Positions 918 through 43,857 of a stretch of 45,269 bases of DNA are shown here, piece after piece (the first letter of the stretch is position 1; every line of letters begins with the position of its first letter). Under the pieces are notes generated by a model that made no database searches, was not told the DNA's origin, and worked only from the letters and a program-made list of their open reading frames with translations. The position numbers and the translations under genes are program-made. Source of the stretch: a virus; IMG/VR virus record IMGVR_UViG_3300006641_000048, positions 1-45,269 of that record. The stretch is one strand, 5' to 3'.

Positions 918-956
918 GTTAGGGCCATGCCAAATCGACGCCCGCATGGTCCTAAC
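918..956. repeat. 39-bp interrupted inverted repeat, copy 1
   Basis: GTTAGGGCCAT (918-928), 17 bases, then ATGGTCCTAAC (946-956). The arms pair over 13 bp if the inner GC is included, with one G.U in RNA. The same arms and the same 17-base gap recur at 14804-14842 and 43819-43857, and in weaker form elsewhere. It lies between gene 1 and the promoter at 986, with 29 bases from its end to the -35. It may be an operator for a dimeric regulator, or a terminator/insulator hairpin. Confidence 0.7.
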
Positions 957-985: not shown

Positions 986-1014
986 TTGCCATGCCGCCCC
1001 GCCTATGCCATAAT
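986..1014 (+). promoter_or_regulatory. sigma70-like promoter, TATGC-type copy 1
   Basis: TTGCCA (986-991), a 17-base spacer ending TATGC, then CATAAT (1009-1014). The following ATATCCCGTGGCC is nearly repeated after the promoter at 4212 (ATATCCCATGGCC). Conservation of spacer end, -10 and downstream bases between two otherwise unrelated intergenic regions supports a real promoter. It would drive the small-gene run starting at 1073. Confidence 0.65.
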
Positions 1015-4281: not shown

Positions 4282-4605
4282 ATGTCCCGCACTCCCCCCG
4301 CCCATTCCGCTTCCGCCATCTATTCCGAGGGCGATTACATTTTCCTCCAGCTCCGCGCCTCCAAAGGCTACACAACTGAACTTTCCTTCCCGGCCACTCC
4401 CGGCGGCATGGCCGCGCTGCTCCGCCTTCTCCGCGAACGCGAGATGCTCGGCGCGACCGCCCCGCAAGCCATTGCCATGCCGTCCATGCCAGTCCAGCAT
4501 GTGATCGACTCATGGCTCAAGACCAACGCCCCGAAGAAGAAGGAGAAGCCCCAACTCGCAACCCTCGACACTATCGACTCACTGCTTGATAGCTTTGACC
4601 TCTGA
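4282..4605 (+). CDS. hypothetical protein with acidic tail, 107 aa
   Basis: ATG at 4282 is preceded by TTCTGGAGCCTGCCTC. The product has a beta-rich start (YIFLQLRASKGYTTELSF), a helix with RLLREREML, a Lys-rich linker (PKKKEKP) and an ending QLATLDTIDSLLDSFDL. That tail parallels RLATIDDLADLF of the 1580 product and DLDSLIADLF of the 8591 product. First gene after the promoter at 4212. Function unknown. Confidence 0.7.
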   Translation: MSRTPPAHSASAIYSEGDYIFLQLRASKGYTTELSFPATPGGMAALLRLLREREMLGATAPQAIAMPSMPVQHVIDSWLKTNAPKKKEKPQLATLDTIDSLLDSFDL

Positions 4606-4651
4606 CCCACCCCCAACTCACGCCCCTATGGGCCAAACCGGAGTCACTTTC

Positions 4652-4924
4652 ATGAATAACATCTTCACCCACCTTTCCAGCCTCAACGCCGAAATCGCCC
4701 TCTACCGCTCGACCTACAAATACACCTCCGACGACGAACGCTGGAACATCACCGTCACCCTGGAAGCCTCCGGGACGCAGATCAAGATCAGCAAGTCTGG
4801 CCCGACCGCCGAGGCGGCCCTTCGTTCCGCCTATTCCGCAATCCTCCCCCTCATCGAGTCTCGGCCCGTGGCCGCAGCCCTCCAGCTTCCATCCCTCACC
4901 TTCGAAGGCGAGATCGTTTCGTGA
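4652..4924 (+). CDS. hypothetical protein, 90 aa
   Basis: ATG at 4652 follows ACCGGAGTCACTTTC, preferred to an earlier in-frame start with no site. The product has beta-strand-like segments (ERWNITVTLEASGTQIKI) then a helix with AALRSAYSAILPLIE; the pattern resembles small single-domain alpha/beta phage proteins. It overlaps the next gene by four bases (GTGA). Confidence 0.65.
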   Translation: MNNIFTHLSSLNAEIALYRSTYKYTSDDERWNITVTLEASGTQIKISKSGPTAEAALRSAYSAILPLIESRPVAAALQLPSLTFEGEIVS

Positions 4925-8945: not shown

Positions 8946-9623
8946 ATGGTTCAAACTCCCGAAGAACGCCGGAAAGCAAAATCTGCCTATACGAAACGAT
9001 GGCGCGAGGCCAATCGCGAAGCCTATCTCGAACAAAGCCGGGCCTATCGGGAACGCCGCAAGGCGCGTGGAGAGGCGCCGCGAAAGCACGACCCCGAAAC
9101 GCGCAAGGCGTGGGCAAAGGCAAACCCGGAAAAAGTGAAGGCCGACCGCCAACGCCAACGCCTTCGTCGTAAGGGCCTGCTCCCTCCCCCGCCCGGTTAC
9201 ACGGTCGAAGAATACGTGGCAAAGCACAAAGCCCGCGCAGCCGCCGTCTATGCCCGTTACTACGCCCGACTCAAGGCCGACCCCGAGTTCCTGGCCCGAC
9301 GCGCCGCGCAACAACGAGCCTACGCCGCCCGCAAACGCAGCGCAGAGGCCAACGCCAAGGCCGAGGCAAGAGCTGTCAAGGCCGCACAACGCGCCGAGCT
9401 TAAAGCCGCTCGCCTGGCCGAACGTGAGGCACAAAAGACTGCCCGAGCGCAAGCACGAGAGGCTAAGCGTTTGCAAAAAGCTCTCGAAGCAGCGAAGCGA
9501 AAGGCTGAGCACCGCAAGGCTCTTGGCCTCGACTGCAAGCCCACGCCTAAGCCCCTACCTAAGCCAGTGGTAAAGCCCGTCCGCTTGATGGGCCGTCTCG
9601 AAGCCCTCTCAAAATGGAGATAA
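8946..9623 (+). CDS. very basic Ala/Arg/Lys-rich coiled protein, 225 aa
   Basis: The N-terminus has repeated Tyr-aromatic/basic units (AYTKRWREANREAYLEQSRA, then YRERRKARG) like the N-terminal regions of some phage HNH proteins, but no HNH motif is present. Residues about 95-200 are a long Ala/Lys/Glu/Arg helix (AEAKAEARAVKAAQRAELKA-type), then PKPLPKPVVKPV. The protein resembles eukaryotic H1-like basic tails and may condense or bind DNA. It could also be a scaffold-type filament. The start has no strong ribosome-binding site (GGAACGCGGCC). Confidence 0.65.
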   Translation: MVQTPEERRKAKSAYTKRWREANREAYLEQSRAYRERRKARGEAPRKHDPETRKAWAKANPEKVKADRQRQRLRRKGLLPPPPGYTVEEYVAKHKARAAAVYARYYARLKADPEFLARRAAQQRAYAARKRSAEANAKAEARAVKAAQRAELKAARLAEREAQKTARAQAREAKRLQKALEAAKRKAEHRKALGLDCKPTPKPLPKPVVKPVRLMGRLEALSKWR

Positions 9624-9625
9624 CC

Positions 9626-10435
9626 ATGCTTTTCCTCAAGCTCGCCGCGTCAGCCCTCAAAATCTGGCAGCCCCCCACAACCACCCACAAAAACATCTCC
9701 TACGGAAAGCACCCCGAGCAGACCCTCGATGCTTATTTGTTATCTGATGGCGCCTTCCACCCTGCCATCGTCTTTATCCACGGGGGCGGCTGGCAGGAGG
9801 GAGACAAGTTCGTTTACGAAGGGAGAGCAAAAAAGTGGAACGCCGCAGGCTTTCACGTATTCGCTCTCAACTACCGCCTCGCGAAGATGAACGATACAGC
9901 GACGCAATGGCCCGCGCAGCTAACAGACTGCCAATCGGCCCTCACCTGGCTTTGGAAGAATGCCCAAGCGTTAAAATTCTTCACTCACAAAACCGCTGTT
10001 GCCGGAGACTCCGCTGGCGCACATCTCGCCATGTCCCTAAGTGCAGCACACTGCTCCCTCATCATTCCCGCAGCAGTCCTTAACATGTTCGGCCCCTCCG
10101 ATCTAACTCGTCCTCCCTTCCCCGACCTTCTCAAATCCCTAGCCATCTTCGGCGGAAAAACCTACGCAGACTGTCCCCTACTCTACAAAAACGCTTCCCC
10201 CCTCTATTCCATAACCCATACCTTCCCCCCAACCTGCTCCATCCACGGCACAGCCGACGCCACCGTTCCAATCACTCAAGCCTACGCTCTTCACGCCCGC
10301 CTCAGCAACATGAAAGTCCCAAACAAACTCCTCACATATGACGGGGGCCATGAGTTCGCAGACCTTTCCCTCTTCGCCCAATTCAATCTGGAAATGCAAT
10401 CCATCATCCAGATTTCTGAGTTCCTAGGAGTCTAA
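9626..10435 (+). CDS. alpha/beta hydrolase (esterase/lipase type), 269 aa
   Basis: Oxyanion-hole motif HGGGW is at residues 52-56. The nucleophile elbow GDSAG holds Ser129. Asp211 (HGTADATVP) and His242 (DGGHEF) complete a catalytic triad. This pattern fits BD-FAE/HSL-type carboxylesterases. ATG at 9626 has TGGAGATAACC upstream and starts two bases after the previous stop; an in-frame ATG at 9614 lies inside that gene. Such enzymes are rare in phage replication arms, so it looks like an acquired metabolic or decay-type gene. No signal peptide is clear. Confidence 0.8.
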   Translation: MLFLKLAASALKIWQPPTTTHKNISYGKHPEQTLDAYLLSDGAFHPAIVFIHGGGWQEGDKFVYEGRAKKWNAAGFHVFALNYRLAKMNDTATQWPAQLTDCQSALTWLWKNAQALKFFTHKTAVAGDSAGAHLAMSLSAAHCSLIIPAAVLNMFGPSDLTRPPFPDLLKSLAIFGGKTYADCPLLYKNASPLYSITHTFPPTCSIHGTADATVPITQAYALHARLSNMKVPNKLLTYDGGHEFADLSLFAQFNLEMQSIIQISEFLGV

Positions 10436-10436
10436 A

Positions 10437-10643
10437 ATGAACAGCACAAAGAAAGGCCAGGATAATCGAAACAAAATCCGAAAACTCCTCGTCACATACC
10501 CTGGCATAACAGGAGTAGAGATTTCAGAGCTTCTGAACCTATCCACTTCCTCCGTCTCCCGTCACATCACCAAGATCAAAGCGGGATGGAAAGCGATGAA
10601 CTTGTCAATGATGCTGAGTAAGATTGGAGATGAAAATGACTGA
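10437..10643 (+). CDS. winged-helix/HTH DNA-binding protein, 68 aa
   Basis: ATG at 10437 follows CTAGGAGTCTAAA. The product has a basic N-terminus and a clear helix-turn-helix: VTYPGITGVEISELLNLSTS with SSVSRHITKIKAG as the recognition helix. This is the MarR/ArsR-like replicated-helix pattern. It starts the compositionally distinct cassette and could regulate it or the phage. The following gene overlaps its end (GGAG inside it). Confidence 0.7.
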   Translation: MNSTKKGQDNRNKIRKLLVTYPGITGVEISELLNLSTSSVSRHITKIKAGWKAMNLSMMLSKIGDEND

Positions 10644-14749: not shown

Positions 14750-14808
14750 CTTACTCCATAAAGTTCGTCTTGATGGTTGTTCTTATGCTGATGAATGAAG
14801 GATGGTAG
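14689..14808 (+). CDS. 39-aa single-span membrane protein
   Basis: ATG at 14689 (AGAAGGATTACTTTC upstream) overlaps the previous gene in another frame. The product is MHPYDQLFRVLQICIYAIGI and then a hydrophobic helix with MVVLMLMNEGW at the end. Its stop TAG (14806-14808) is the start of the 39-bp repeat copy 2. Confidence 0.5.
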   Translation: MHPYDQLFRVLQICIYAIGITYSIKFVLMVVLMLMNEGW

Positions 14809-14842
14809 GCCCATCCGGGCCACAATTCCGAATGGACCTAAC
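14804..14842. repeat. 39-bp interrupted inverted repeat, copy 2
   Basis: GGTAGGCCCAT (14804-14814), 17 bases, then ATGGACCTAAC (14832-14842): 19 of 20 fixed positions of GTTAGGNCCAT...ATGGNCCTAAC. The left arm begins at the preceding stop TAG. The promoter -35 at 14871 lies 28 bases beyond its end, nearly the same distance as for copy 1 (29). Possible operator, or terminator plus promoter punctuation. Confidence 0.7.
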
Positions 14843-14870: not shown

Positions 14871-14899
14871 TTGCAATGGCCTAAACAATATGCCATTCT
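14871..14899 (+). promoter_or_regulatory. sigma70-like promoter, TATGC-type copy 3
   Basis: TTGCAA (14871-14876), 17 bases ending TATGC, then CATTCT (14894-14899). The -35 and TATGC extension match the promoters at 986 and 4212, but the -10 is only 3/6 to TATAAT, so it may need the extension or an activator. It would drive the recombination/replication run from 14945. Confidence 0.5.
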
Positions 14900-14944: not shown

Positions 14945-15427
14945 ATGTCAGATCGAGTCCTTAATCTCCCTCACGGGATTTCCGTTAACGTCGCTCAGCC
15001 CTTTGTCGAGGGCCACGTTCTTACCGCTCTTGAAGCGGAAAAGCTCAACCACGTTCTTGCGGACTCCATCCGCACGAGCCTTATGTCCAAGCTAAAGCGT
15101 CTCCTCAAGTCGGGAGAGGTTGACGCTGCGTCGGCGGGAGCGGACTTTCAGAGCTATGCTGACTCCTATAGCTTTGTTGTCCGCTCCCCCAAAGCTGCTT
15201 CCGATCCGATCATGAAGGAAGCTCAGAAGATCGCGAAGGATCAGGTTTATGCCGCCATCCGCAGCAAAGGCGGGAACCCTTCCGACTACACCTCTGAGCA
15301 GATCGCGGAATACGTCTCCAAGGTTCTCCAGAACCGACCGGAAATCCGTGAGGAAGCGGAGCGCCGGATCAACTCAACTCGCGAGATGGCGGCGGACATC
15401 CTCCCTGACTTCTTCGACGCCGCCTAA
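14945..15427 (+). CDS. hypothetical protein, 160 aa
   Basis: ATG at 14945 has AGGAAACCGAAA upstream, preferred to an in-frame start 24 bases earlier. The protein is helical and mixed-charge: LEAEKLNHVLADSIRTSLMS, LLKSGEVDAASAGADFQSYA and REEAERRINSTREMAADILP. It ends with the terminator at 15430. Its place as first gene after promoter 3 suggests early or middle expression. No recognised domain. Confidence 0.75.
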   Translation: MSDRVLNLPHGISVNVAQPFVEGHVLTALEAEKLNHVLADSIRTSLMSKLKRLLKSGEVDAASAGADFQSYADSYSFVVRSPKAASDPIMKEAQKIAKDQVYAAIRSKGGNPSDYTSEQIAEYVSKVLQNRPEIREEAERRINSTREMAADILPDFFDAA

Positions 15428-15738: not shown

Positions 15739-15954
15739 ATGGCTGGCCGTCTGTCCGATGACACTACGAAGGTCCATCTCCACCTATTCACAGAAGATCT
15801 CGACTTTGTGGATGCCATGATGTGCAGGCAGGGGATACGGACAGTCGGGCGATCAAAAGCCATTCGCCTCATCGTCCATGCCTGGGTTCAACACGTAAAG
15901 AGGAAGTCCAATGCAAAACCAGTCCCCTTCGACCCCTCAATCCTCGACGAATGA
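15739..15954 (+). CDS. possible ribbon-helix-helix DNA-binding protein, 71 aa
   Basis: ATG at 15739 directly follows the previous stop. An early strand (TTKVHLHLFTEDLDFVD) followed by helices with GIRTVGRSKAIRLIVHAWVQ and a basic tail is compatible with a CopG/Arc-like ribbon-helix-helix protein. The motif is suggestive rather than decisive. It could regulate this segment or bind DNA during replication. Confidence 0.55.
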   Translation: MAGRLSDDTTKVHLHLFTEDLDFVDAMMCRQGIRTVGRSKAIRLIVHAWVQHVKRKSNAKPVPFDPSILDE

Positions 15955-19039: not shown

Positions 19040-20434
19040 ATGGACATTCTTCTATCCGAAATCTGGATCGACCGGCCTTCCCGCCAGCGGAAAGAACTCG
19101 ACGTTTCCGATCTACTCGAAAGCATCCCCCGTCACGGAGTGCTTGTCCCGATCATCGTGACCCTCGAGCCTGGCCCGAATGGCGAACCCTACAAACTCCT
19201 TGCCGGAGAGCGCCGCTTCACCGCCTCTTCCAAACTCGGCCTGCCCACCATCCCTGCTCGTCAGCTTGACGACCTCCCCCTCACCGAGCAGCGGATTATC
19301 GAACTCGAAGAGAACCTTCGAAGAAAGGATTTGACCTGGCAGGATCAATGCGAGGCCGTCGCGTCACTCCACGAAACCCTTTCCGAGCGGAACGCCGACT
19401 GGTCTATCCCTCAGTCCGCCAGCCACATGGGTTATTCCGCAGAGTGGGTTCGAAAGTGTTGCAGGATCGCGCGAGAACTCCATCGCGAAAACGTGCGGGA
19501 AATGGACTCCGCAACACGAGCCTTCAATTTCATTGCGCGAGAGGATGAACGAGTCGCCTCGGACGCGATTTCAAACATCCTTCATTCCGCCACAGAGGCG
19601 GTTGAGGACGCATCCGAACGGGCGATAGGGCCGGACCCCTTAGACGACCTAATCCATCCATCCACGCCCCGCGACAACCCCGGCAAAACGCCATTCATTA
19701 TCCCGTCCGAACAATCCATCCTTCAGCAGTCTTTCCTCGACTTTGCCCCTTCCTATCGCGGCGAGCCTTTCAACCTAATCCACTGCGATTTCCCTTACGG
19801 CGTCAACGTATTCGGCGGGAAGTGGTCTGGAAAACAATCTTGGCACAACTACAAAGACACGGCAGATATTTACGAGCAGCTTATTGCTTGCCTCTGTGAG
19901 AACCTGGATCGTGTGATGGCACACAGCGGGCACCTGATCTTCTGGCTTTCCGCTGACATAAAAATCCAAGCCCGAACCCTCGAAATGTTTTCCCAGTTCG
20001 CCCCGCAACTTTCCTTCTGCACCTTCCCACTGATCTGGGTCAAAAGCGATAACGTCGGAATTGTGCCAGACCCCAAACGCGAGCCCAGACGAATTTACGA
20101 AACCGCACTTATCGCCTCTCGCGAGGACCGACTGCTGGTCAAGCCGGTCTCCAACGCCATCTCCGCCCAAACCAACAAGGAGCATCATCCACACACCAAA
20201 CCCGAACAAGTCCTTCGCCACTTCTTTCAGATGTTCGTCGATACGAACACACGAATGCTCGATCCCACTTGTGGGGGTGGCTCGTCCCTTCGTGCAGCAG
20301 AATCCCTCGGCGCAGCCCACGTGCTGGGCCTAGAGATAAATGATGATTATGTCTCGAATGCCCGAAGGGCGCTCAACTCTTTCCGCGTCCTTCGTGCAGC
20401 ATCAAACATCCAAAAGGAGCAAACGAATGTTTGA
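19040..20434 (+). CDS. ParB-like domain fused to DNA N4/N6 methyltransferase, 464 aa
   Basis: N-terminal ParB-like domain: IWIDRPSRQRKELD, GERRF at 56-60 and EENLRRKDLTW near 94. C-terminal DNA methylase: CDFPYG near 249-254 is motif IV (DPPY-like, here DFPY); DPTCGGG near 408 is motif I; GLEINDDYVSNARRAL follows. It belongs with ParB-methyltransferase fusions of phages and prophages, which modify adenine or cytosine to resist restriction. ATG at 19040 follows AGAAGTAAG. Confidence 0.85.
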   Translation: MDILLSEIWIDRPSRQRKELDVSDLLESIPRHGVLVPIIVTLEPGPNGEPYKLLAGERRFTASSKLGLPTIPARQLDDLPLTEQRIIELEENLRRKDLTWQDQCEAVASLHETLSERNADWSIPQSASHMGYSAEWVRKCCRIARELHRENVREMDSATRAFNFIAREDERVASDAISNILHSATEAVEDASERAIGPDPLDDLIHPSTPRDNPGKTPFIIPSEQSILQQSFLDFAPSYRGEPFNLIHCDFPYGVNVFGGKWSGKQSWHNYKDTADIYEQLIACLCENLDRVMAHSGHLIFWLSADIKIQARTLEMFSQFAPQLSFCTFPLIWVKSDNVGIVPDPKREPRRIYETALIASREDRLLVKPVSNAISAQTNKEHHPHTKPEQVLRHFFQMFVDTNTRMLDPTCGGGSSLRAAESLGAAHVLGLEINDDYVSNARRALNSFRVLRAASNIQKEQTNV

Positions 20435-20780
20435 GAACCCAATGCAAGATCAGGTGACGCCTACTGCCAACCCCCAGCTCGTCATCATTGGCGAGGCCAT
20501 GGATCGGATTGCCCAGCTTTTTTCCGAGAAGAACTCGGAGTATGGGGACTCCGGCGACATTCTGGCAAACTTCCGGCGCCTCGCAGAGCAGCAGGGCGTT
20601 CCCATGTCCACCGCCTGGTTCTTCCTTGCTGGCAAACACATCGACACAATCACGCAATACATCAAAGACCGGCGAGATGCTGTAGCCCGTCACCGGACCC
20701 AGCCAATCTCCGAACGCATTGACGATCTGATCGTCTATTCCCTGCTCCTTCTCGCCATCACGGAAGAGGAGTCTCGTTAA
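20427..20780 (+). CDS. DUF1599-like (nucleotide-modification-associated) protein, 117 aa
   Basis: ATG at 20427 has AAAAGGAGCAAACGA upstream and overlaps the methylase. The body has AQLFSEKNSEYGDSGDILAN, with FRRLAEQQGVPMSTAWFFLA, KHIDTITQYIKD and ERIDDLIVYSLLLLAITEEE. This resembles DUF1599 / Nmad1-type helical proteins, related to MazG-like folds, found in phage DNA-modification loci. Paired with the methylase it may act in nucleotide metabolism. Its stop overlaps the next ATG. Confidence 0.65.
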   Translation: MFENPMQDQVTPTANPQLVIIGEAMDRIAQLFSEKNSEYGDSGDILANFRRLAEQQGVPMSTAWFFLAGKHIDTITQYIKDRRDAVARHRTQPISERIDDLIVYSLLLLAITEEESR

Positions 20781-21829
20781 TGCACACCCCTGCGCCCGCT
20801 TTCGCTCACACATCTGGCCCGAAAGACGCTAAGATCGCGTTTGTGGGAGAGGCGTGGGGGCAGCAAGAAGCCCTGATCGGAAAGCCCTTCCAAGGCTACT
20901 CCGGTCAGGAGCTTTCCCGAATGCTGCAAGAGGCCGGGATAACCCGGCGGGACTGCTTTTTCACAAACGTATTTGCCCTCCAGCCCATGAACAACGACAT
21001 TGGCGATCTTTGTGGGACAAAGGCTGCGACGGCTTCACCCTATCCTGCTCTTGGCAAGCTCGGCCAATACATGAGGCCAGAGTTTCAGCCAGAACTTGAT
21101 CGACTAAAAGAAGAGCTGGAGGCCGTCCGTCCAAACCTCGTCGTGGCGCTCGGAGCAACGGCCTGCTGGGCACTCCTTCACACAAAAGGCATCGGGAGCC
21201 TCCGTGGCACCGTCGCAACGGCAGCGCTCCTTCCAGTCAAGGTCCTCCCCACCTATCACCCTGCTGCCGTCCTTCGAAACTGGGCGTGGCGTCCAATCAC
21301 CATCGCAGACTTAATGAAGGCGAAGCGCGAGAGCGAGTTTCCCGAAATACGCCGCCCGCAGCGTTTCATCCTTGTAAATCCCACTCTTGCCGAGTGCGAA
21401 GCCTGGGTCGAAGAGCATCTCCGCGACGAGTGCGCTTGCGATATTGAGACGAAATTCGGCACGATCGAGATGATCGGTTTCTCTGCGTCTCCGACTCACG
21501 CGATGGTTGTTCCCTTCTATGACGCGAACGCACGGAAAAGCTACTGGCCTTCTCCCGCCGCCGAGAAAGACGTTCGAAAGTTCGTGCAGAAAATCCTCGG
21601 GAACCCCAAAATCATCAAGATTTTCCAAAACGGCCTTTACGATCTCCAATACCTCATAAAAGAAGGCTTCCGTCCGAAAGGCTGCCTCCACGACACTATG
21701 CTCTATCACCACGCCCTCTACCCCGAGCTTCAAAAGGGCCTTGGCTTCCTCGGCAGCGTTTACACTTCCGAACCCGCCTGGAAGATGATGAGAGGGAAGA
21801 AGATTACGGAATTTAAGAAGGACGACTGA
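20780..21829 (+). CDS. uracil-DNA-glycosylase-like domain fused to a 3'-5' exonuclease domain, 349 aa
   Basis: Residues 1-190 form a family-4/5-type UDG: VGEAWGQQEA at 22-31, TNVFALQP at 62-69 and TYHPAAVLRN at 158-167. The usual CRPP Cys is replaced (FALQP), so the Fe-S cluster of family 4 is probably lost. Residues 200-349 are the start of a DnaQ/PolA exonuclease: DIE at 221-223 (motif I) and NGLYDLQYL at 284-292 (motif II). It stops after KKITEFKKDD; motif III is found in the 22164 product. It overlaps the preceding stop at 20780. Confidence 0.85.
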   Translation: MHTPAPAFAHTSGPKDAKIAFVGEAWGQQEALIGKPFQGYSGQELSRMLQEAGITRRDCFFTNVFALQPMNNDIGDLCGTKAATASPYPALGKLGQYMRPEFQPELDRLKEELEAVRPNLVVALGATACWALLHTKGIGSLRGTVATAALLPVKVLPTYHPAAVLRNWAWRPITIADLMKAKRESEFPEIRRPQRFILVNPTLAECEAWVEEHLRDECACDIETKFGTIEMIGFSASPTHAMVVPFYDANARKSYWPSPAAEKDVRKFVQKILGNPKIIKIFQNGLYDLQYLIKEGFRPKGCLHDTMLYHHALYPELQKGLGFLGSVYTSEPAWKMMRGKKITEFKKDD

Positions 21830-22163: not shown

Positions 22164-23645
22164 ATGCCAGTCATCGACACATCAACCCTGCAAGAGGGCG
22201 TGACCCTTGCTGAGAACGAACAAATCTACAACGGCCTGGACTGCTGCATCACGCACGAAGTCTTGAACGCACTCCGCGCTCTAGGCCCGGCCCCAGCCAT
22301 CTACGACTTCTCTCGCGCCCTCCAAGCCCCAAGCCTCACAATGATGCAGATGGGCTTTCGAATTGACCCTTACGAGCGGCAGAAAGGCATCGAAACCCTT
22401 ACAAAAGAAATCACGCGACTCACGGGTATTCTGAACCGCTTCGCCTACGCGGTATGGGATCGCCCGCTTAATGCCAATTCCCCAAAAATGCTCCAAGACT
22501 TTTTCTTCAAGGCCATGAACATTCCAGAAATCTGGACCTCGAAGAAAGGAGAACGAAAGCTCTCGATGGACCGAGAAGCCCTTGAAAAACTCGACAACTA
22601 CTACCACGCCCGCCCAATTGTCTCCACAATCCTAGCTATCCGTGACACTACAAAGCAACTTTCCGTGCTCCAAACTGAAGTCGATTCAGATGGACGAATG
22701 AGGACTTCTTACAATGTCGCAGGAACAGAAACTGGCCGATTTTCTTCAAGCAAAAACGCTTTTGGCACAGGAACAAATCTCCAAAACATTACCGCTTCTC
22801 TACGAAAAATGTTCATCGCTGACCCAGGGCATAAAATCTGCGGCATCGACCTTGAACAAGCTGAGAGTCGAGAAGTCGGATGGCTTGCAGGAACTCTATT
22901 TGATGATTGGAGCTACCTCGACGCTTGTTATAGCGGTGACCTCCACACTCTTGTTGCTCGAACGGCCTGGCCAGAATTGTCTTGGACCGGAGACGCAAAG
23001 GCAGACCGAAAACTTGCCGATACTCCCTTCTACCGCCACCTTACTTACCGAGATATGGCCAAGAAACTCGGCCACGGAAGCAATTATCGTGGACTACCTC
23101 CAACCATGGCCCGTCACGCAAAAATTCCCGTCCCCGTCGCAGAGTCCTTCCAGACCCGCTATTTCGGACGCTTCCCCGGTATTCCCCGCTGGCACCGATG
23201 GGTCGCCCAGCAACTCCAAACAACTCACCGTATCATCACTCCTTTCGGAAGAGAGCGAACCTTCTTCGGACGAGCGCAGGATGACACGACATTACGGGAG
23301 GCGATCGCATTTTCGCCACAGAGCGCGACGGCGGATCGACTAAACCTCGTCCTCTGGCGCATCTGGAAATACATGCCGCAAGTCCAGCTCATCGCACAAA
23401 TTCACGACGCCTTTTATTTCCAATACCCCGAAAGCCTGGACGAAGAAGAGGTAATTGCTGAGGCCCTCTCCCACTTCCACATCGACTTCGAGCATAACGG
23501 CCATAAACTAATCGTTCCCGGCGAAGCCAAAGTCGGCTGGAATTGGGGCAATTTCGATCCCGACTCCAACCCCGATGGCCTCGCTAAATGGAAGAATAAG
23601 AAGGACGAGCGGACACGCACCCCGCTGTTGTCCCAAAAGCTGTGA
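22164..23645 (+). CDS. polA: PolA-family DNA polymerase (polymerase part plus exonuclease motif III), 493 aa
   Basis: The N-terminus has IYNGLDCCITHEV at 21-33, which is exonuclease motif III (Tyr22...Asp26); motifs I and II are on the 20780 product. Polymerase motif A GIDLEQAESRE is near 227-237, motif B RDMAKKLGHGSNYRGLP near 296-312, and motif C QIHDAFYF near 412-419. The sequence KKITEFKKDD (upstream gene end) followed by ENEQIYNGLD would read naturally in one chain, so one ancestral gene seems to have been split. The ATG at 22164 has only a weak site (AAGGCACTTTCC). Confidence 0.85.
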   Translation: MPVIDTSTLQEGVTLAENEQIYNGLDCCITHEVLNALRALGPAPAIYDFSRALQAPSLTMMQMGFRIDPYERQKGIETLTKEITRLTGILNRFAYAVWDRPLNANSPKMLQDFFFKAMNIPEIWTSKKGERKLSMDREALEKLDNYYHARPIVSTILAIRDTTKQLSVLQTEVDSDGRMRTSYNVAGTETGRFSSSKNAFGTGTNLQNITASLRKMFIADPGHKICGIDLEQAESREVGWLAGTLFDDWSYLDACYSGDLHTLVARTAWPELSWTGDAKADRKLADTPFYRHLTYRDMAKKLGHGSNYRGLPPTMARHAKIPVPVAESFQTRYFGRFPGIPRWHRWVAQQLQTTHRIITPFGRERTFFGRAQDDTTLREAIAFSPQSATADRLNLVLWRIWKYMPQVQLIAQIHDAFYFQYPESLDEEEVIAEALSHFHIDFEHNGHKLIVPGEAKVGWNWGNFDPDSNPDGLAKWKNKKDERTRTPLLSQKL

Positions 23646-23655
23646 GGGGGCTTGT

Positions 23656-25851
23656 GTGGACTTTATTGACAAGTTTGTGGAGATGACGGACGAGCGACCT
23701 TCTCCGGCATTATTCCGTAAATGGGCTGCCATTACAACACTGTCCGGCGCGCTCGAAAAGCGCGTCTGGACCATGACTAAAGCCGGACCTCAGTTTGCCA
23801 ATCTCTACACAATGCTTGTCGCCCCGCCAGGCATCGGCAAATGCTTGAGATTTGGCGAGCAAGTGTTGACCTACGAAGGAAAAAGTGTTCCAGTAGAAAC
23901 ACTTGTAGAAGGGGATTTGCTGATTGGCCCTGATGGACAATCTCGCAAAGTTCTTTCTAATTCTCCTGGCTTTGGGCGGCTATACAAAGTCTCCCCGAGA
24001 AAAGGGCGGGCATGGTATTGTAACGGAGATCATATCCTTTCACTTCGAAAAAGCAGAGCCCCAAACACAGGGACAATAAAATTCGTAACTGTCAATGAAT
24101 GGCTTCAATGGAACCCTTGGCAGAAATCTGAATGGAAACTTTGGAGAACAGGAGTTCAATCTTTTTCTCCAAAACCAACTCCCATAATCGACCCTTACTT
24201 TCTTGGGCTTCTACTCGGGGATGGAGATAGTGATGTAAGAAATGGTATTGTCATTACAACTGCAGATCAAGAAATCGTATCCTATGTCCAAGAACAAGCT
24301 GTAGAATGGGGACTTACTGTCAGCCGTTATGGATCATATCGTTATGCCCTTGTCCAACTCGAGCAACGTCAGAACTCTCTCCATGTTGAAATAAACAAAA
24401 TCTTAACTGACATAAAATGCGGCACAAAGTTTGTGCCCGAGCAGTATCGTTCCGGCTCCTATTCCACTCGTCTTCAGCTTCTTGCTGGACTTCTCGACGC
24501 TGACGGTTCACTTTGCCCTTCAAATTCCTTTGACTTTATCTCGAAAAGTCCCCAACTCGCTCAGGACGTAGCATTTCTTTCTCGTTCCCTCGGCTTGTTC
24601 GCAAATATCAAATCTTGCTTTAAAACTTGCGGAACTTTTGTTGGCGAGTATTGGCGTGTTATTATAAGTGGAGATATTGACATTATCCCTTGTAAGATCG
24701 AAAGGAAAAAGGCCAAACCTAGACGCCAGATAAAAAATCCATTAAATACTGGATTTAACATCACCCTTTCAGATGAAGGTTGGTGGGCAGGATTAGCTGT
24801 CGATGGAGATAATCAATTTCTTCTCGACGACTTCACAGTTATACACAACTCTCAAGCCATCAACCCAGCAGAGTCCCTGCTCAAAGCCACTCGCAAATTC
24901 AAAATCGCCCCAAACAGCGTTACAGGCGCCTCGTTCATCGACGCCCTGGCAAAGGCCGGAACGAGCTTCATAATCAGCCCGTCCCAAAAACTTGAATATC
25001 ACAGCCTCTTCGTATTCGCTGCAGAACTCGGAGTCTTTCTAAACTCCTACGACCTCGGATTTCTTTCTGTCATAAATGAACTGTTCGACCACAAAGACTC
25101 CTATCGAGAGGAACGAAGGCACTCCCTAAAAGAACCGATCGACATTCCCCGCCCCATGACCACGCTCCTCGTGGGCTCCCAGCCTGGCTTCCTCGGAACC
25201 CTCTTGCCCGAAGCTGCCTGGACAATGGGCTGGACCTCACGCCTGCTCATGGTCTATGCCTCTGAAGTCCCCGACACTCCGCTCTTCGGCACTTACACCG
25301 CTCAAGACGAAATCCAAAAGACCCTAATCACCAAGCTCGAAGAGTGTTCCCGTTACTATGGGGAGATGAAATGGGATGGCCCGGCCATCTCAGAAATCGA
25401 AAGCTGGAAAAAGACTGGCTTTGCCCCGATCCCGGACCATCCAAAGCTCGCGAATTACGTCCCTCGCCGTGGCCGGATTTTTGCCTTCAAACTCGCCATG
25501 ATCTCTGCCATGTCACGAGGCGAGGAGAAGGTGATTAGACGGCAAGATGTGGAGAGGGCGAGAGGCTGGCTTCTGGAAATCGAAACCCTGATGCCTCAAA
25601 TCTTCCGTGACATGGTAATGCGGTCAGACGATCAAGTGATCGAAGAAACCTTCCAGTTCTGTTTCACAATGTATCTCAAAAACCGAAAACCCATCCCAGG
25701 CTCCATGATCTTACGTTTCCTCAGCCAACGCACTCCCGCCGAAAAAGCCGAGCGGATTCTGTCGTTGATGGAAAAGTCTGGAATGTTTGAGAGGATGGCG
25801 GGGCAGGAAGCCTATGTGCCGTTGGCAAGAGAGAGGCACGGGATGGCTTAG
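23656..25851 (+). CDS. DUF3987-like phage ATPase interrupted by an intein, 731 aa
   Basis: GTG at 23656 follows GAGGGGGCTTGT, preferred to an in-frame ATG at 23575 that lies within the polymerase gene. Host protein: FIDKFVEMTDERPSPALFRK, KWAAITTLSGALEKRV, Walker A LVAPPGIGK (residues 54-62) completed after the intein by SQAI. After it come AELGVFLNSYD and INELFDHKDSYREER, then PMTTLLVGSQPG. This resembles DUF3987-type replicative ATPase/helicase proteins. It closes the replication run, ending at the convergence point. Confidence 0.75.
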   Translation: MDFIDKFVEMTDERPSPALFRKWAAITTLSGALEKRVWTMTKAGPQFANLYTMLVAPPGIGKCLRFGEQVLTYEGKSVPVETLVEGDLLIGPDGQSRKVLSNSPGFGRLYKVSPRKGRAWYCNGDHILSLRKSRAPNTGTIKFVTVNEWLQWNPWQKSEWKLWRTGVQSFSPKPTPIIDPYFLGLLLGDGDSDVRNGIVITTADQEIVSYVQEQAVEWGLTVSRYGSYRYALVQLEQRQNSLHVEINKILTDIKCGTKFVPEQYRSGSYSTRLQLLAGLLDADGSLCPSNSFDFISKSPQLAQDVAFLSRSLGLFANIKSCFKTCGTFVGEYWRVIISGDIDIIPCKIERKKAKPRRQIKNPLNTGFNITLSDEGWWAGLAVDGDNQFLLDDFTVIHNSQAINPAESLLKATRKFKIAPNSVTGASFIDALAKAGTSFIISPSQKLEYHSLFVFAAELGVFLNSYDLGFLSVINELFDHKDSYREERRHSLKEPIDIPRPMTTLLVGSQPGFLGTLLPEAAWTMGWTSRLLMVYASEVPDTPLFGTYTAQDEIQKTLITKLEECSRYYGEMKWDGPAISEIESWKKTGFAPIPDHPKLANYVPRRGRIFAFKLAMISAMSRGEEKVIRRQDVERARGWLLEIETLMPQIFRDMVMRSDDQVIEETFQFCFTMYLKNRKPIPGSMILRFLSQRTPAEKAERILSLMEKSGMFERMAGQEAYVPLARERHGMA
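23842..24849 (+). mobile_element. LAGLIDADG-containing intein in the P-loop, 336 aa
   Basis: Begins with Cys (CLRFGEQVLTYEG) and ends HN before Ser, so splicing would restore GIGKSQAI. Hint block A is at the start, block B is near NGDHILSL, and block F/G is VDGDNQFLLDDFTVIHN. Two dodecapeptides, GLLLGDGDS (about 24205-24231) and LLAGLLDADGS (about 24478-24510), mark a homing endonuclease. Row 24241-24300 has 22 G+C of 60, versus 41 of 60 at 25141-25200, so the element is compositionally foreign. Confidence 0.93.
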
Positions 25852-25885
25852 GGCCACCCCGTCCTCACGCCCGCATGGGTCTATT
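25847..25885. repeat. 39-bp inverted repeat, degenerate copy at convergent ends
   Basis: CTTAGGGCCAC (25847-25857), 17 bases, then ATGGGTCTATT (25875-25885): 15 of 20 fixed positions. The left arm covers the plus-strand stop TAG (25849-25851) and the right arm touches the end of the minus-strand tail gene (stop at 25881). The position between converging genes suits a bidirectional terminator. Confidence 0.45.
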
Positions 25886-32479: not shown

Positions 32480-32728
32480 CTAAGCCATCGAGATAACTTT
32501 ATAGGTATTCGCACCTATAACAAGTGTATCTATCTGCGTCCATCCAGTCGGAACAGCCGCCGCATTCGGTAGCAATACTGCCGCCGCCGTTTGCACTCCC
32601 GCAGCCGTAAACCCAATCGGCACACTATTCGCCACAAGCGCGGAGAGCAGGAGTTGAAGTTGCCGTGTGGCATTTCCATGCTCATCCACCAGCTCTTTCA
32701 TCGAGTTCGGAACACGAGGCTGTTGCAT
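32480..32728 (-). CDS. small structural-arm protein, 82 aa
   Basis: ATG at 32728 overlaps the previous gene TAA (TAATG), preferred to a longer in-frame start. N-terminus is polar; residues about 30-60 are Ala/Leu-rich (LLLSALVANSVPIGFTAAG) and the end has WTQIDTLVIGANTYKVIS. It lies between gp10-like and DNA-transfer genes. Function unknown. Confidence 0.6.
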   Translation of the reverse strand: MQQPRVPNSMKELVDEHGNATRQLQLLLSALVANSVPIGFTAAGVQTAAAVLLPNAAAVPTGWTQIDTLVIGANTYKVISMA

Positions 32729-34143
32729 TACGTTTCCAGTTTTTCCACATCCACAAACGCTCCGTTCAGCGCCGTTGCCGCCGGAGCCGTCCACGACAGT
32801 TCAAACACCCTATCCCTTGCAATCCCAAGCCTATTCCACGAAGGAATGGTCCGATACTCGCCAGACATACCTAGCGACTGCTGCAGCCCATTCCCAAACG
32901 ACACGCCACGATCGTCGCTCCAGCGAAGCGTCACTTGCGGATCGACAGTCGGATCTTCAATCGTCCCGACTTCAATATCCGCGATAAACTGCTTATAGCT
33001 AATCCTGTCCAGATCTTTTACGATGTGTGGGAAGGAGCGAAGCCGCATAATCGGCTGCCCCGCATCATCGTAAGCAGTCAAAGACCAGTCGTAGAGCTTA
33101 CCGTTTTGCCAGTCCCCACAAATGGTTTTGCCATACGCAAAAGCCACGCAGTTAGCCCGGTGCCGATGCAACGTCCCGTCCGGCTCCAAATACCCCCGCT
33201 GATGCCAGAGCTGCGTGGACAGATCGTAACTCCAAGTCGCGTCCGCAGATGGAAATGTCAGCACATAAAACATATGCGAGCCCTGCTGGTAGCAGAACCC
33301 AATCGCGTCCGAAATCCGATCATACTTGCTGATCGCATCGGTAATGGCAGGGGTGGAAATCACATCTGCCTTGTAAGCCGATCCGAGCATAACAAGCGCT
33401 TGGCCGTTATTATCCTGCGACAGCCAGAAGATACTCAGCCCCCATTTCGCGAGTGACCTTTTAGCTGCGATGCCGTGTTGCAAGAATGCCCCAGGGATCG
33501 CCTGAAAAGGAAAGGGATATGCCCCGACGTTTTGCCAGATTTCGGTCGTGCGCCGCCCAAAAGCCCAGATTTCCTTATGCACCACATCAATAATCTGAAG
33601 CTTGTCTGCGTCGCCAGAGATCGTGGCCAAGGCCAGCGCAGTGTAAGTCGTGGCGTTCGAGTCGCTCGACTGCATATTCGCGTTTTCCGTGGACGAGACG
33701 AGAAACGTGTCGATGTAACGAATCTGGTTCCCGCCAACGAAATTCGCAGGGTTGAACGTGGCGAAGGCCAACGTCGTCAGATTCACACTCCACCCAAACA
33801 AACTTCCATCCAGCACAATCATATAACTTTTATTATCATACATCGAGACAAGGCCGTTTTGCGTCGCAATCGTCCCGAGTTCCTGAAGCACAAAAGTATC
33901 TGGAACGTAGTAAACTTTGTTCCCAATCACAGCGAAGAGCTTGCCATCGGAAGCGGTATAAAGCTGTCGCACTTCTGCAACAATGCCTTGAGCAAGTTCG
34001 ATCAGCCCAGGAGTAGCGTAATGGGTGAAAGGAACCTCCGCATCCTTCGTGTTCATCTCAGGATACAAGTTGATACATCGCTGAGCGTTAGCAATAACGC
34101 TGCGAGCTTCATATGCACCCTGGATTAGCGGAAGCGGAGGCAC
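32728..34143 (-). CDS. P22 gp10-like packaged DNA stabilization / tail protein, 471 aa
   Basis: GTG at 34143 is supported by AAAGGGG upstream (TTTAAG spacer). The opening LPLIQGAYEARSVIANAQRC and INLYPE is diagnostic of the phage stabilization family of P22 gp10. The rest is beta-rich with repeats (WAFGRRTTEIWQNVGAYPFP, FWLSQDNNGQALVML). It would close the portal after packaging and join the tail. gp4-like protein is encoded two genes upstream. Confidence 0.85.
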   Translation of the reverse strand: MPPLPLIQGAYEARSVIANAQRCINLYPEMNTKDAEVPFTHYATPGLIELAQGIVAEVRQLYTASDGKLFAVIGNKVYYVPDTFVLQELGTIATQNGLVSMYDNKSYMIVLDGSLFGWSVNLTTLAFATFNPANFVGGNQIRYIDTFLVSSTENANMQSSDSNATTYTALALATISGDADKLQIIDVVHKEIWAFGRRTTEIWQNVGAYPFPFQAIPGAFLQHGIAAKRSLAKWGLSIFWLSQDNNGQALVMLGSAYKADVISTPAITDAISKYDRISDAIGFCYQQGSHMFYVLTFPSADATWSYDLSTQLWHQRGYLEPDGTLHRHRANCVAFAYGKTICGDWQNGKLYDWSLTAYDDAGQPIMRLRSFPHIVKDLDRISYKQFIADIEVGTIEDPTVDPQVTLRWSDDRGVSFGNGLQQSLGMSGEYRTIPSWNRLGIARDRVFELSWTAPAATALNGAFVDVEKLET

Positions 34144-34182
34144 CTTAAACCCCTTTCAACTTGAGGCCCGAATGGACTTAGG
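34144..34182. repeat. 39-bp inverted repeat, degenerate candidate
   Basis: CTTAAACCCCT (34144-34154), 17 bases, ATGGACTTAGG (34172-34182): 14 of 20 fixed positions, a level that could occur by chance once or so in the window. It fills the gap between the 34178-34573 gene stop and the 32728-34143 GTG start, the same kind of place as the better copies. Confidence 0.3.
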
Positions 34183-34573
34183 CCGAAGTCAACTGCGTCC
34201 AGGTTGTAACGCCCGCCGAGTCGATCAACGCGGCAAAAAGAGCGTTTTTTCCGTTACCCACTGTTCCATACGCAGCGGTATCCACATTATCTCCACTTTG
34301 CGTATAAACCCGAAGATTGCTTGCACCACTGTTCCTAACCCAAACAATGCCGCCCTGCACACCATCTGGCAGCACAACACTATCATTCGCAGAAGCCGCG
34401 ACGGATATTTCATTCAGCCCGTATTTGAGCGTCGGGGTTGAAGAACTCAGACCACCACCTGCGAGTGCAGTAATAGCAACATTATTCTGCCACGTCGGTT
34501 GAGCCAGTGCGTTGTTCAGGTCCGTCCCGTCGATGAGCCGAAAACCTGGGATAAAGGTCTGCGGAATTGCCAT
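34178..34573 (-). CDS. small virion protein candidate, 131 aa
   Basis: Start at 34573 (GACGAGGTAAGACA). The body is beta-rich: MAIPQTFIPGFRLIDGTDLN, LKYGLNEISVAASANDSVVL and IVWVRNSGASNLRVYTQSGD. It lies between gp4-like and gp10-like genes. A decoration or tail/fibre role is possible. I recall similar small beta proteins in P22-like phages but cannot assign a family. Confidence 0.6.
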   Translation of the reverse strand: MAIPQTFIPGFRLIDGTDLNNALAQPTWQNNVAITALAGGGLSSSTPTLKYGLNEISVAASANDSVVLPDGVQGGIVWVRNSGASNLRVYTQSGDNVDTAAYGTVGNGKNALFAALIDSAGVTTWTQLTSA

Positions 34574-40398: not shown

Positions 40399-42474
40399 CT
40401 AAAACCCGAAGTCCTGTTGCCTCTCAGGCATCTCTTCCTGATGCCCCTCATACGTATCACTGATCGGAACCTCAACGCTCTCCTTGAGGGCCTGATCCCC
40501 AAGCAGCTGTGTCTGCGGCCCCGTCAGCCCAGCATTTTTAAGCAAAATATCGAGCCGTTTCGTGATCGCGTCGTAAACCTCGACCTCGCGTTTTTCCAGC
40601 CTCGCCTGCGCCTTACCCTTCTCCTTCGCAAGTTCGTCAAGCGACTGCTTGAGCGCTTCCTGCATCTGCTGCAACTGCGCCATAAGCATCTGCTCGTTCT
40701 GCGTCGGGCCTTGGCCAAGAGCCTGCGGCGGGACCATCCGCTTGAGCCGCTCTGCCGCCTCTTCCGCCATCGGGAAATCTCCCGCGCGGAACATAATATC
40801 CCCGATGATCCCGGAGAGTGCAGGATTTTGTGTCAGGATCAGGGTCAGCGCATTAAACGCCTCTTCCCGCCTCGTGGCATAGCCTGGCCCCACATCCGCC
40901 ATCACCTCGTAAGTGCCGATCCCAGGGTTCAGCACCCTTCCAATCACTTCCTGATTTTCATTAACTTCCAGCGCGTGAGCCTGCTTGAGCTGCGGATCGA
41001 GCTTGACCTCCAAACTCTCATTATTTTCAGCAAGGATCGAGATGACCCTGTTTGTATCATAAACCTTCGGAACGAGGTCAAGTATAATCTTTCCCACTTG
41101 ACGGATAGCAAGAGCAAGATTATCAATGTAATGATAAGTCGCTCGATCGCCTTGGCGCTGACGCTCCGCGATGGCCTTCCCAGTTCGCTCATTGCCTTGC
41201 TGCCCTAACTGGTTTTCGTATTGCCCCGAAACCATCTGCATTTCGACGTTCGCGATCTCCATGCCTTTCAGCGCAACCGGTGACGGGACAGGTGGCTCAA
41301 CACGAGTAGGTGGAGGCAAAGGCTTACCATCGTCTCCAACAGATTTATAAGGCAAATACGCATGATTCTGCGTGTTCGCAGAAGCCCAATATGTCTCATA
41401 GCCTTCAACGCTTTCTACCCCGACAATCCACGGAGTTTTACTCTGCAAGGCTCCATATTCAACCGCCGCCGACGCCCAATAATTATACATCCTCTGCGGG
41501 TCTTTCAGCGCTCTTGTATGCCCCTTCCGATCCATCACCCCATCAATAATAACTTCCTCTCCAATCACCGGAATAATCGGAATAGTCTGCCCAATCCAGA
41601 CCTTTTCCTCTTCCTCCACCACATGATTTCCGACGATGAAGTGATAGTTGATCTGGCGGCGTGTGATTGGACGGCGGCGGGTCTGGCGGTCTGTCAGGAG
41701 CGGGTTTTTCGGATCAAGCCGCTTCACATCAGACTCCAGCAGCGTCACCGGCCCGGCATCCCCCTCCGTCAGCAGCAGGAAATCCTCAACATCCTCTGCC
41801 TCGAAGTATTCCGCAACTCTTACATGATCCTCATTACTCCAGCCAAAATCTGGCCCGAAGCTCGAAGCCCCTGCATACTGCACATACCTCGGATACTTCT
41901 GGTCAAACACTTCCTTCGGGAGATCTTCGAAGATAAATCCAAACCTCGCGTCCTCCTTCACCGGCCCCCTCGCGTCAGGATCGAGATAGACTGTCAGAGG
42001 GTCCGGGATAGAGCAGACGTAAATGTCTTGATCGAACGAATTATCATCCACGTAGTCCGTCATGACTCGGAGATAGCCGAGGCCTGCATTCACCTGGAAC
42101 GTCGTGGCAATATCGTAATGCGCCTGCGCGTTGCTCTGATATTCAATATGCCTCGCGATCCCGTCCCAAATCCGAGCCGCTTCCGCCGTTGCCCCATTCC
42201 CAGCCGCCCGATACTTAATCCCCGGCTTATTCATCTTCGCATCGTTAATGATGTTCAGATTGTGCTGCCGAGTTTTGTTAATGGTCAGGGCCGGGCGTCC
42301 AGCATTGGTCCGATCATTAAACATCGTCGTCGGCCACTGGAACTTATTATCCGGGTCTGCGTTTGCAAAGCGAATATCATCGATAAACAGTCGCCGGAAG
42401 TAACTCTCCCACTCCTCACAACGACGAAACCGCTCTCTCGCGCGACGGATAAGTGCGTCAAATTTCTCGTTCAT
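40399..42474 (-). CDS. portal protein, P22 family, 691 aa
   Basis: ATG at 42474 overlaps the terminase TGA (ATGA), preferred to a GTG three codons earlier. N-terminus has ESYFRRLFIDDIRFANADPD, NKFQWP and RPALTINKTRQHNLNIINDA, typical of P22-like portals. Then CSIPDPLTVYLDPDARGPVK and a long C-terminal coil (QALGQGPTQNEQMLMAQLQQ). It forms the dodecameric DNA gate of the head. Confidence 0.92.
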   Translation of the reverse strand: MNEKFDALIRRARERFRRCEEWESYFRRLFIDDIRFANADPDNKFQWPTTMFNDRTNAGRPALTINKTRQHNLNIINDAKMNKPGIKYRAAGNGATAEAARIWDGIARHIEYQSNAQAHYDIATTFQVNAGLGYLRVMTDYVDDNSFDQDIYVCSIPDPLTVYLDPDARGPVKEDARFGFIFEDLPKEVFDQKYPRYVQYAGASSFGPDFGWSNEDHVRVAEYFEAEDVEDFLLLTEGDAGPVTLLESDVKRLDPKNPLLTDRQTRRRPITRRQINYHFIVGNHVVEEEEKVWIGQTIPIIPVIGEEVIIDGVMDRKGHTRALKDPQRMYNYWASAAVEYGALQSKTPWIVGVESVEGYETYWASANTQNHAYLPYKSVGDDGKPLPPPTRVEPPVPSPVALKGMEIANVEMQMVSGQYENQLGQQGNERTGKAIAERQRQGDRATYHYIDNLALAIRQVGKIILDLVPKVYDTNRVISILAENNESLEVKLDPQLKQAHALEVNENQEVIGRVLNPGIGTYEVMADVGPGYATRREEAFNALTLILTQNPALSGIIGDIMFRAGDFPMAEEAAERLKRMVPPQALGQGPTQNEQMLMAQLQQMQEALKQSLDELAKEKGKAQARLEKREVEVYDAITKRLDILLKNAGLTGPQTQLLGDQALKESVEVPISDTYEGHQEEMPERQQDFGF

Positions 42475-43829
42475 CCCAACCACCCCAGATCATCGTTCGA
42501 CCGAAAAAGCCCAGAATTATGCGCAAGCCTAGCCAACGCCCCCCTCACCTTCGAGCCCCTCCGATCACTTTCCCCTTGCGAGGCGATCGCCATATACCGA
42601 AAAGCATCTGCCGCGTGTGATGACCAGTCATGTTTTGGCTCCGCACTTAACGTCTCAGTTTTCACATTTTCTTCATAGTGATAATGGCGAAGAGCATGAA
42701 GAAGTCCCTTTTCACACCGCGAAGCATCAAACCAGCAAGTGGGGAATACGCTCCTTGCAGCGATAATGCCGTCGAACTTCGAAAGTCTCGGGACAACTCG
42801 GACGGCAAATCCTGCCTCCCGCATCTGCTCTTCAATAGACTTTCTTGATCCCAGGGTTTCGGCTCTTGCATCGTGGGGGAGCCAGCAGGTTCCATAATCA
42901 TAAAGTTCTCCAGACGATCCCCGGCGAGTTTTTAGAATGTGGATGTAATGGTCGAGGGCCTTCAGCCGATTTTCGTAAAAATCAACAATCCGCCTCTGCA
43001 TCCCGACATACTGCTCGAAGATGATCGAAGTGCTATCCGAGCGACCCAGATCGAAATACAAATTCACGGTGCTTGACGGAACGTGCGGAACACGCGTGAT
43101 CCTGCCCTCTTCTGCACAGTCGCGTAGTTCATCCGCGTAAACCGCCCCCTCCAAACTCTTCCTACACTCCCCCTCCCAAACGTGCAGATAATCATCTCGG
43201 TTCCGCGCTTTCAAGTCGAGCATTTCCTGCTTCAAAACCTGCGGAAACCACGGATTATCCCGCCAGGAAATCTTTTGCACAACTGCATTTTTCGGCGGGT
43301 TCAGCACGAACCGGACGTAAGTATCATCGCTTTCGAGTTCTGGATTGAAGGAAACCCAGATTTCCGAGTTTTCCTTTCGGATGGTCGGGAGCAGGATCTC
43401 CCACGAACTTTTCGTAACTTTATTCGCTTCCTCAACCCAGCAAATATCCACGCCTTCATACGACTTAATCTTCGAGACGTTATTCCGTATGCCCTCGAAC
43501 GAAAACTCCGTGCCTGTTGACGGGCAGAAAATCCTAGCCTGTTCAATCGAGTAATACGCCCCGAGCCCGGTGTATTCAATCTGATCAGTCAAGACTTTGT
43601 GCACTGAGTCTCGGATCGAGTTCTGCAACTCTCTGGCACACAAGATACGAAGGGGCTTCTTCGCGCCGAGAACAACGAGCGCTCTGGCAATGCCCCAGCT
43701 CTTTGCTCCACCACGACCGCCATAGAGCACCCGGTATCTCACGGGCATTCCATTGACTTCTGGCCAGAACAAGCATTGTAGCTTTTCTGGCCATTCAATC
43801 ACCTTCGCATCTTGTGTTGTTAGGTCCAT
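42471..43829 (-). CDS. terminase large subunit, 452 aa
   Basis: ATG at 43829 (ATGGACCTAAC) is preferred to a TTG two codons earlier. Walker A GGRGGAKSW is at residues 37-45; Walker B GVDICWVEEA near 126-135; nuclease acidic residues in YFDLGRSDST and the HDWSSHAADAFRY end region. This is the Terminase_3/PBSX-type motor. It overlaps the portal start. The 39-bp repeat copy 3 covers its start. Confidence 0.92.
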   Translation of the reverse strand: MDLTTQDAKVIEWPEKLQCLFWPEVNGMPVRYRVLYGGRGGAKSWGIARALVVLGAKKPLRILCARELQNSIRDSVHKVLTDQIEYTGLGAYYSIEQARIFCPSTGTEFSFEGIRNNVSKIKSYEGVDICWVEEANKVTKSSWEILLPTIRKENSEIWVSFNPELESDDTYVRFVLNPPKNAVVQKISWRDNPWFPQVLKQEMLDLKARNRDDYLHVWEGECRKSLEGAVYADELRDCAEEGRITRVPHVPSSTVNLYFDLGRSDSTSIIFEQYVGMQRRIVDFYENRLKALDHYIHILKTRRGSSGELYDYGTCWLPHDARAETLGSRKSIEEQMREAGFAVRVVPRLSKFDGIIAARSVFPTCWFDASRCEKGLLHALRHYHYEENVKTETLSAEPKHDWSSHAADAFRYMAIASQGESDRRGSKVRGALARLAHNSGLFRSNDDLGWLG

Positions 43830-43857
43830 GACCAACTCAGTTCCTGATGGGCCTACT
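43819..43857. repeat. 39-bp interrupted inverted repeat, copy 3
   Basis: GTTAGGTCCAT (43819-43829), 17 bases, ATGGGCCTACT (43847-43857): 18 of 20 fixed positions. On the minus strand it starts at the TAG stop of the Lys-rich gene and ends over the ATG of the terminase (ATGGACCTAAC). In mRNA the arms could pair and hide the terminase start codon, leaving the GAACTGAG site in the loop. Confidence 0.7.

Follow-up and report, generated by a model that had tools for sequence, protein, structure and literature searches.

To our knowledge, dispersed operators acting on promoters and elongation are known from very few systems, namely the stoperators, at which a bound repressor halts elongation, and KorB with its long-range promoter silencing. 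In operators of the NikR type, an RHH tetramer recognises inverted half-sites that stand apart from each other. In Cluster A mycobacteriophages, stoperators (those of L5 gp71 and the TipsytheTRex repressor) are present as many dispersed copies in promoters and short intergenic spaces, and the motif diverges between related phages along with the regulator (PMC9283540, PMC6550527). The KorB operators (OB) of plasmid RK2/RP4 are dispersed palindromes located near promoters, the reader being a ParB-family protein (PMC11790492, PMC5016525).

The DNA analysed here (the window) is a 45,269-base contig of an uncultured podovirus-like phage for which no close relative was found in INPHARED, and its genes include those for terminase, portal, capsid, a two-part DNA polymerase, Sak4, an exonuclease and a ParB-methyltransferase. 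Like stoperators, the palindromes described below are dispersed over the phage genome and lie in promoters and short intergenic gaps. The family A DNA polymerase is split into two genes (20780-21829 and 22164-23645), as it is in relatives, the second part in one of these (G020) being a 778-aa protein with an insertion. The 758-aa helicase (23575-25851) has a P-loop insertion with intein-like ends and an LLAGLLDADG motif, as in an intein with a homing endonuclease, and the helicase of relatives is uninterrupted at 395 aa. The region 9614-10643 contains a gene resembling those of esterases and a small HTH gene; neither has a homologue among the related genomes compared, and both are likely to be recent acquisitions, judging from sequence comparison.

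Sequence and copies of the palindrome

A symmetric 37-bp matrix trained with relatives resolved the palindrome as a tripartite site without polarity, TTARRCCCAY-N5-ACTSAGT-N5-RTGGGYYTAA, with six copies in the window beginning at 919, 4601, 14805, 25848, 34145 and 43820. The original prediction of a 39-bp interrupted repeat in three copies proved real, with an expectation of 0 matches to GTTAGGNCCAT-N17-ATGGNCCTAAC in 100 dinucleotide shuffles: the copies at 918-956, 14804-14842 and 43819-43857 contain 0, 1 and 2 mismatches respectively, and hence score 20, 19 and 18 of 20 positions rather than 19, 19 and 18. The constant 17-base gap claimed at the same time was upheld as to length but not as free sequence, for it contains a conserved palindromic ACTSAGT centre, clear in relatives and worn in the window copies. 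Three weaker copies were likewise genuine (25848, 30.5 bits; 34145, 27.0 bits; 4601, 22.9 bits), the 12 genomes scanned yielding 38 sites of at least 15 bits against 0.05 in shuffles. When the window and related phages were scanned with the matrix, as had been suggested, 87 sites of at least 16 bits were recorded in 27 contigs of the phage group against 0 in ten shuffled sets, a count for which the matrix was trained on the same genomes, with every homologous copy from related contigs included, the 16-bit cut-off itself lying far above the shuffled null. Copies number about six per genome in the window's phage group, and approximately 3-7 over all phages. A short literature search located no earlier description of such an element, which does not prove that none exists.

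The first copy (919-955, 28.6 bits) separates gene 263-874 from gene 1073-1279 and is followed by a TATGC-type promoter, TTGCCA-N17-CATAAT (TATGCCATAAT, 986-1014, plus strand), recognised by consensus match only and beginning 29 bases past the 39-bp copy at 918-956. Copy A (14805-14841, 32.8 bits) precedes the replication operon, which begins at 14945 and encodes the RHH-like protein, exonuclease, Sak4, ParB-methyltransferase and DNA polymerase; it is followed by a promoter-like TTGCAA-N17-CATTCT (TATGCCATTCT, 14871-14899, plus strand), the -35/spacer region of which contains an extra half-site, AATGGCCTAAA (14875-14885, plus strand), at a distance of some 44 bp from the copy's right arm. The claim that two copies lie upstream of the -35 of such promoters was thereby borne out, at 29 bases (986) and 28 bases (14871). 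The same arrangement characterised 18 A sites of the window's group, each with a conserved promoter-like TTGCAATGG...TATGGCA 27-30 bp downstream and a further half-site in the promoter -35/spacer region, and the copy at 919 conforms to it. More generally, half-sites (at least 11 bits) occurred within 100 bp of 26% of elements compared with 2% in shuffles. A lone half-site, TTAGACCCAC, is present at the contig's left end (22-31). Half-sites of this kind flank the early-operon element of relatives, and the window's counterpart of that element may lie just beyond the contig end.

The remaining copies lie at gene boundaries. Copy D (4601-4637, 22.9 bits) is placed at the stop codon of gene 4282-4605, before a start near 4652, and copy F (34145-34181) lies in the late operon between head-closure gene 32728-34143 and gene 34178-34573. 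Copy B (25848-25884) fills the 29-bp gap between the convergent stop codons of the early and late operons, both of which are TAG and located inside the arms. Copy C (43820-43856, 35.9 bits), the third of those first described, required one correction, in that it overlaps the minus-strand start codon of terL (large terminase, 42471-43829; PHROG terminase large subunit, 3.1e-66): on that strand its right arm reads ATG GAC CTA A (M-D-L), the first terL codons. No promoter was apparent at copy C, where an activator role may be considered. That the element is itself a promoter was rejected, since the -10-like TATAAT seen in copy C of relatives is missing from the window copy. Helical phasing between element and promoter at A was also rejected, the spacings over distant phages (5-34 bp) giving no clean pattern.

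Conserved positions and diverged sequences in other phages

The genomes compared were all metagenome contigs with mechanical gene calls, and in those that were syntenic the palindromes recurred at the same operon boundaries. Positions E1 and E2 lie where the early and pre-terL operons start in opposite directions; position A, upstream of the replication operon and its promoter, is occupied in relatives too; and position D, between the genes at 4282 and 4652, is also occupied in G021, G006, G007 and G041-G046. At position B, 10 of 14 genomes had a gap of 29 bp between the convergent stop codons, and in each of the 10 both stop codons coincided with arm positions 2-4 (TAR). The element in the gap before terL (position C) was kept in the relatives with terL at least 79% identical whose sequence includes the terL start. 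Copy F had no counterpart at that place in the relatives compared. Seven matrix matches were recorded in G021, a 56,088-bp contig that is probably a complete genome, its ends being identical over 93 bp.

Two more distant relatives (terL ~53%), G053 and G055, encode the ParB-methyltransferase together with a weak RHH match, and each has a repeated palindrome of its own; in G012 and G054, at the same distance and without those two genes, no repeated palindrome stood out. A wider search with the ParB-methyltransferase added about 30 phages, and the RHH-like protein was detected in 19 of the 20 examined; the sole exception, G076, had no repeated palindrome. The RHH-like and ParB-methyltransferase genes were linked in these 19 of 20 distant phages.

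A repeat search blind to position then revealed genome-specific palindromes in nine distant genomes, the one in G055 through a short core of its own. An outer CCCAY...RTGGR with a span of 26-27 bp is common to most of them, the looser case of G055 being TGTCCAT...ATGGACA, and their centres are exemplified by GTTTG..CAAAC, ATGTAATTACAT and TTTCG..CGAAA. They were located at terL starts or upstream of the operon equivalent to that at 14945 for 13 of 14 testable anchors, against 0.3 expected. An anchored look gave weaker cases in G071, G078 and G085, for which significance was not computed, and no repeated palindrome was found in the remaining distant genomes, about half of those with both proteins. 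G053 also has a repeated GC-rich hairpin (L226, 70-105 and 3576-3611), the arms of which change together between copies, so that it is probably an RNA element of another kind.

Conservation of placement while the sequence changes argues for a site with a co-evolving reader. On a broader and more tentative view, which we consider possible, the palindromes would constitute an old regulatory code, preserved widely across a large group of phages that are uncultured and probably virulent. The shared outer CCCAY...RTGGR would be read by a conserved RHH-like protein, and the fast-diverging centre would confer specificity on each phage; such a network would insulate transcription units, and may set compatibility in co-infection.

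Function of the site and its candidate readers

The reading to which we attach a probability of roughly 0.55 is that the palindrome is a dispersed DNA operator or boundary site for a phage-encoded DNA-binding protein. An operator of a phage regulator or a transcription boundary had been among the options originally listed, and is supported by independently evolving arms, placement at operon boundaries, the two copies 28-29 bases ahead of a promoter, and confinement to phages: a degenerate pattern matched 49 viral stretches, but in the 257 Gb of the bacterial and archaeal genome set (84,980 species) it matched a single stretch, probably by chance. A small phage protein, the RHH-like product of 15739-15954 being the likeliest, would bind each site as a dimer or tetramer, and as the operon of that protein starts at copy A, it may be autoregulated. 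At copy A and the early-operon copy, both of them upstream of promoters, the bound protein would serve as an operator complex; within or between operons (the terL start, the convergent junction, D and F) it would act as a roadblock or boundary to RNA polymerase, a role suggested by position only, in that sites in the convergent gap and at the terL start codon are hard to explain by initiation control alone. The outcome would be the separation in time of early, replication and late transcription units.

Two binders had been named earlier. The HTH protein at 10437 was rejected, its homologue being absent from six related element-bearing genomes, whereas the RHH-like protein (71 aa, 15739-15954, plus strand) was retained, being present in every relative covering the region (5/5). 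Among 44 loci encoding this protein, 31 were scanned for an A site, which lay approximately 0.9-1.25 kb upstream of the gene in those with enough upstream sequence. It is small, conserved and encoded behind A, and the strand predicted to contact DNA includes an invariant His, for which reasons it is taken as the first candidate and, on sequence grounds, most likely the best. The AlphaFold model has an extended segment followed by helices at residues 18-28 and 38-58, with no paired strand; the sole RHH protein matched in a profile search was NikR, weakly (E=0.6) and in the expected register, and neither Foldseek nor hhalign supported an RHH fold.

The second candidate is the conserved protein encoded at 19040-20434 (plus strand), in which a ParB N-terminal domain (Pfam ParB_N, 1.2e-11) and an HTH-like region are fused to an N6/N4 DNA methyltransferase (N6_N4_Mtase, 1.3e-9). 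By distribution it is an equal alternative, since co-occurrence cannot part two proteins that are distributed alike, and no clear rule linked the site centre to either the RHH strand residues or the ParB HTH. Were it the reader, the sites would be loading sites akin to parS or OB, from which a clamp of the ParB family silences promoters in the vicinity as KorB does, or organises or marks the phage DNA. That a ParB_N domain and HTH-like stretch are encoded wherever the element occurs, that phages with unlike centres also differ strongly in the HTH region, and that RK2 KorB silences over long range from dispersed OB sites (PMC11790492, PMC5016525) all favour this proposal, but we judge it unlikely: parS and OB are far shorter than the site, the placement of which follows promoters, stop codons and start codons, and no ParA-type ATPase was found in 18 genomes. 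A classical partition locus is itself unlikely for the last of these reasons, and was set aside.

Sites of replication, packaging or recombination (an origin, pac or resolution site) would accord with the copy at terL, with the spread of copies round the map, and with the replication genes that follow copy A. Six copies at operon boundaries and promoters are not, however, what such sites would lead one to expect, and with site polarity absent and no tyrosine integrase in 18 genomes this explanation is distinctly improbable.

The original prediction had left the choice between a protein-bound element and a selected hairpin, of which only the former is supported. As an RNA hairpin, the palindrome would be an intrinsic or bidirectional terminator, an RNase III-type processing site, or a translational operator at terL, and in its favour the arms are able to pair, the element sits in untranslated gaps, and none of 200 shuffles folds as well as the single strand of copy 919 (z -4.4). 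The copies at 4601, 25848, 34145 and 43820, by contrast, folded no better than shuffles, and over 44 non-redundant sites the arms paired no more than permuted arms (p=0.27 Watson-Crick; p=0.11 with G-U): single arm positions varied in z, the highest being position 16 (3.4), but the arms fitted the consensus independently and compensatory changes were absent. The conserved ACTSAGT centre is, moreover, incapable of forming a stem, no Rfam match was obtained, the palindrome lacks the GC stem and succeeding U-tract of an intrinsic terminator, and neither a terminator-like site nor a U-tract was found at convergent junction B in the window. With independent arms, folding that is not conserved, and near-absence from bacterial genomes, a DNA site for a phage-encoded protein is most likely, and an RNA hairpin very improbable. 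That a host protein (a global regulator or chromosome-organising protein) reads the palindrome is equally hard to credit: these phages are presumably transcribed by the host's RNA polymerase, and none of phage origin was seen in the window, but bacterial and archaeal genomes returned only the one match and a given position has different centres in different phages.

Comparison with known dispersed operators

Should the preferred reading of a phage-encoded operator and boundary system be correct, it would represent a further dispersed-operator system, in phages without a close relative in the named collection searched, and would bear on how compact phages seemingly lacking their own RNA polymerase part early, middle and late transcription. 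The natural 'mutants', in which site positions are kept and the centre is changed, would render the co-evolution of operator code and reader testable, and the palindrome offers a sequence handle on the functions of small uncharacterised phage genes.

As with stoperators, the sequence of the palindrome differs between related phages. Stoperators, however, are asymmetric, 13 bp long and aligned with the direction of transcription, each read by a monomer, and number more than 20 per genome, whereas the palindromes described here are symmetric, 26-37 bp in length and number approximately 3-7; stoperator phages are also temperate, with an integrase or parABS, whereas neither a tyrosine integrase nor a ParA-type ATPase was found here in 18 genomes. 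The likeness to KorB and OB resides in dispersed palindromes near promoters and in the ParB-family protein encoded here, a candidate binder, but OB is a short single inverted repeat in place of three conserved blocks over 37 bp, and the ParB domain has no ParA partner here and is fused to a methyltransferase. Separated inverted half-sites, and the weak profile match of the candidate protein, recall NikR and its operators, from which the palindrome differs in sequence, spacing and the dispersal of its copies, and the candidate in the absence of a nickel-binding domain. On these comparisons, the palindrome would appear comparable in its working to the stoperators and the KorB operators, and a member of neither.
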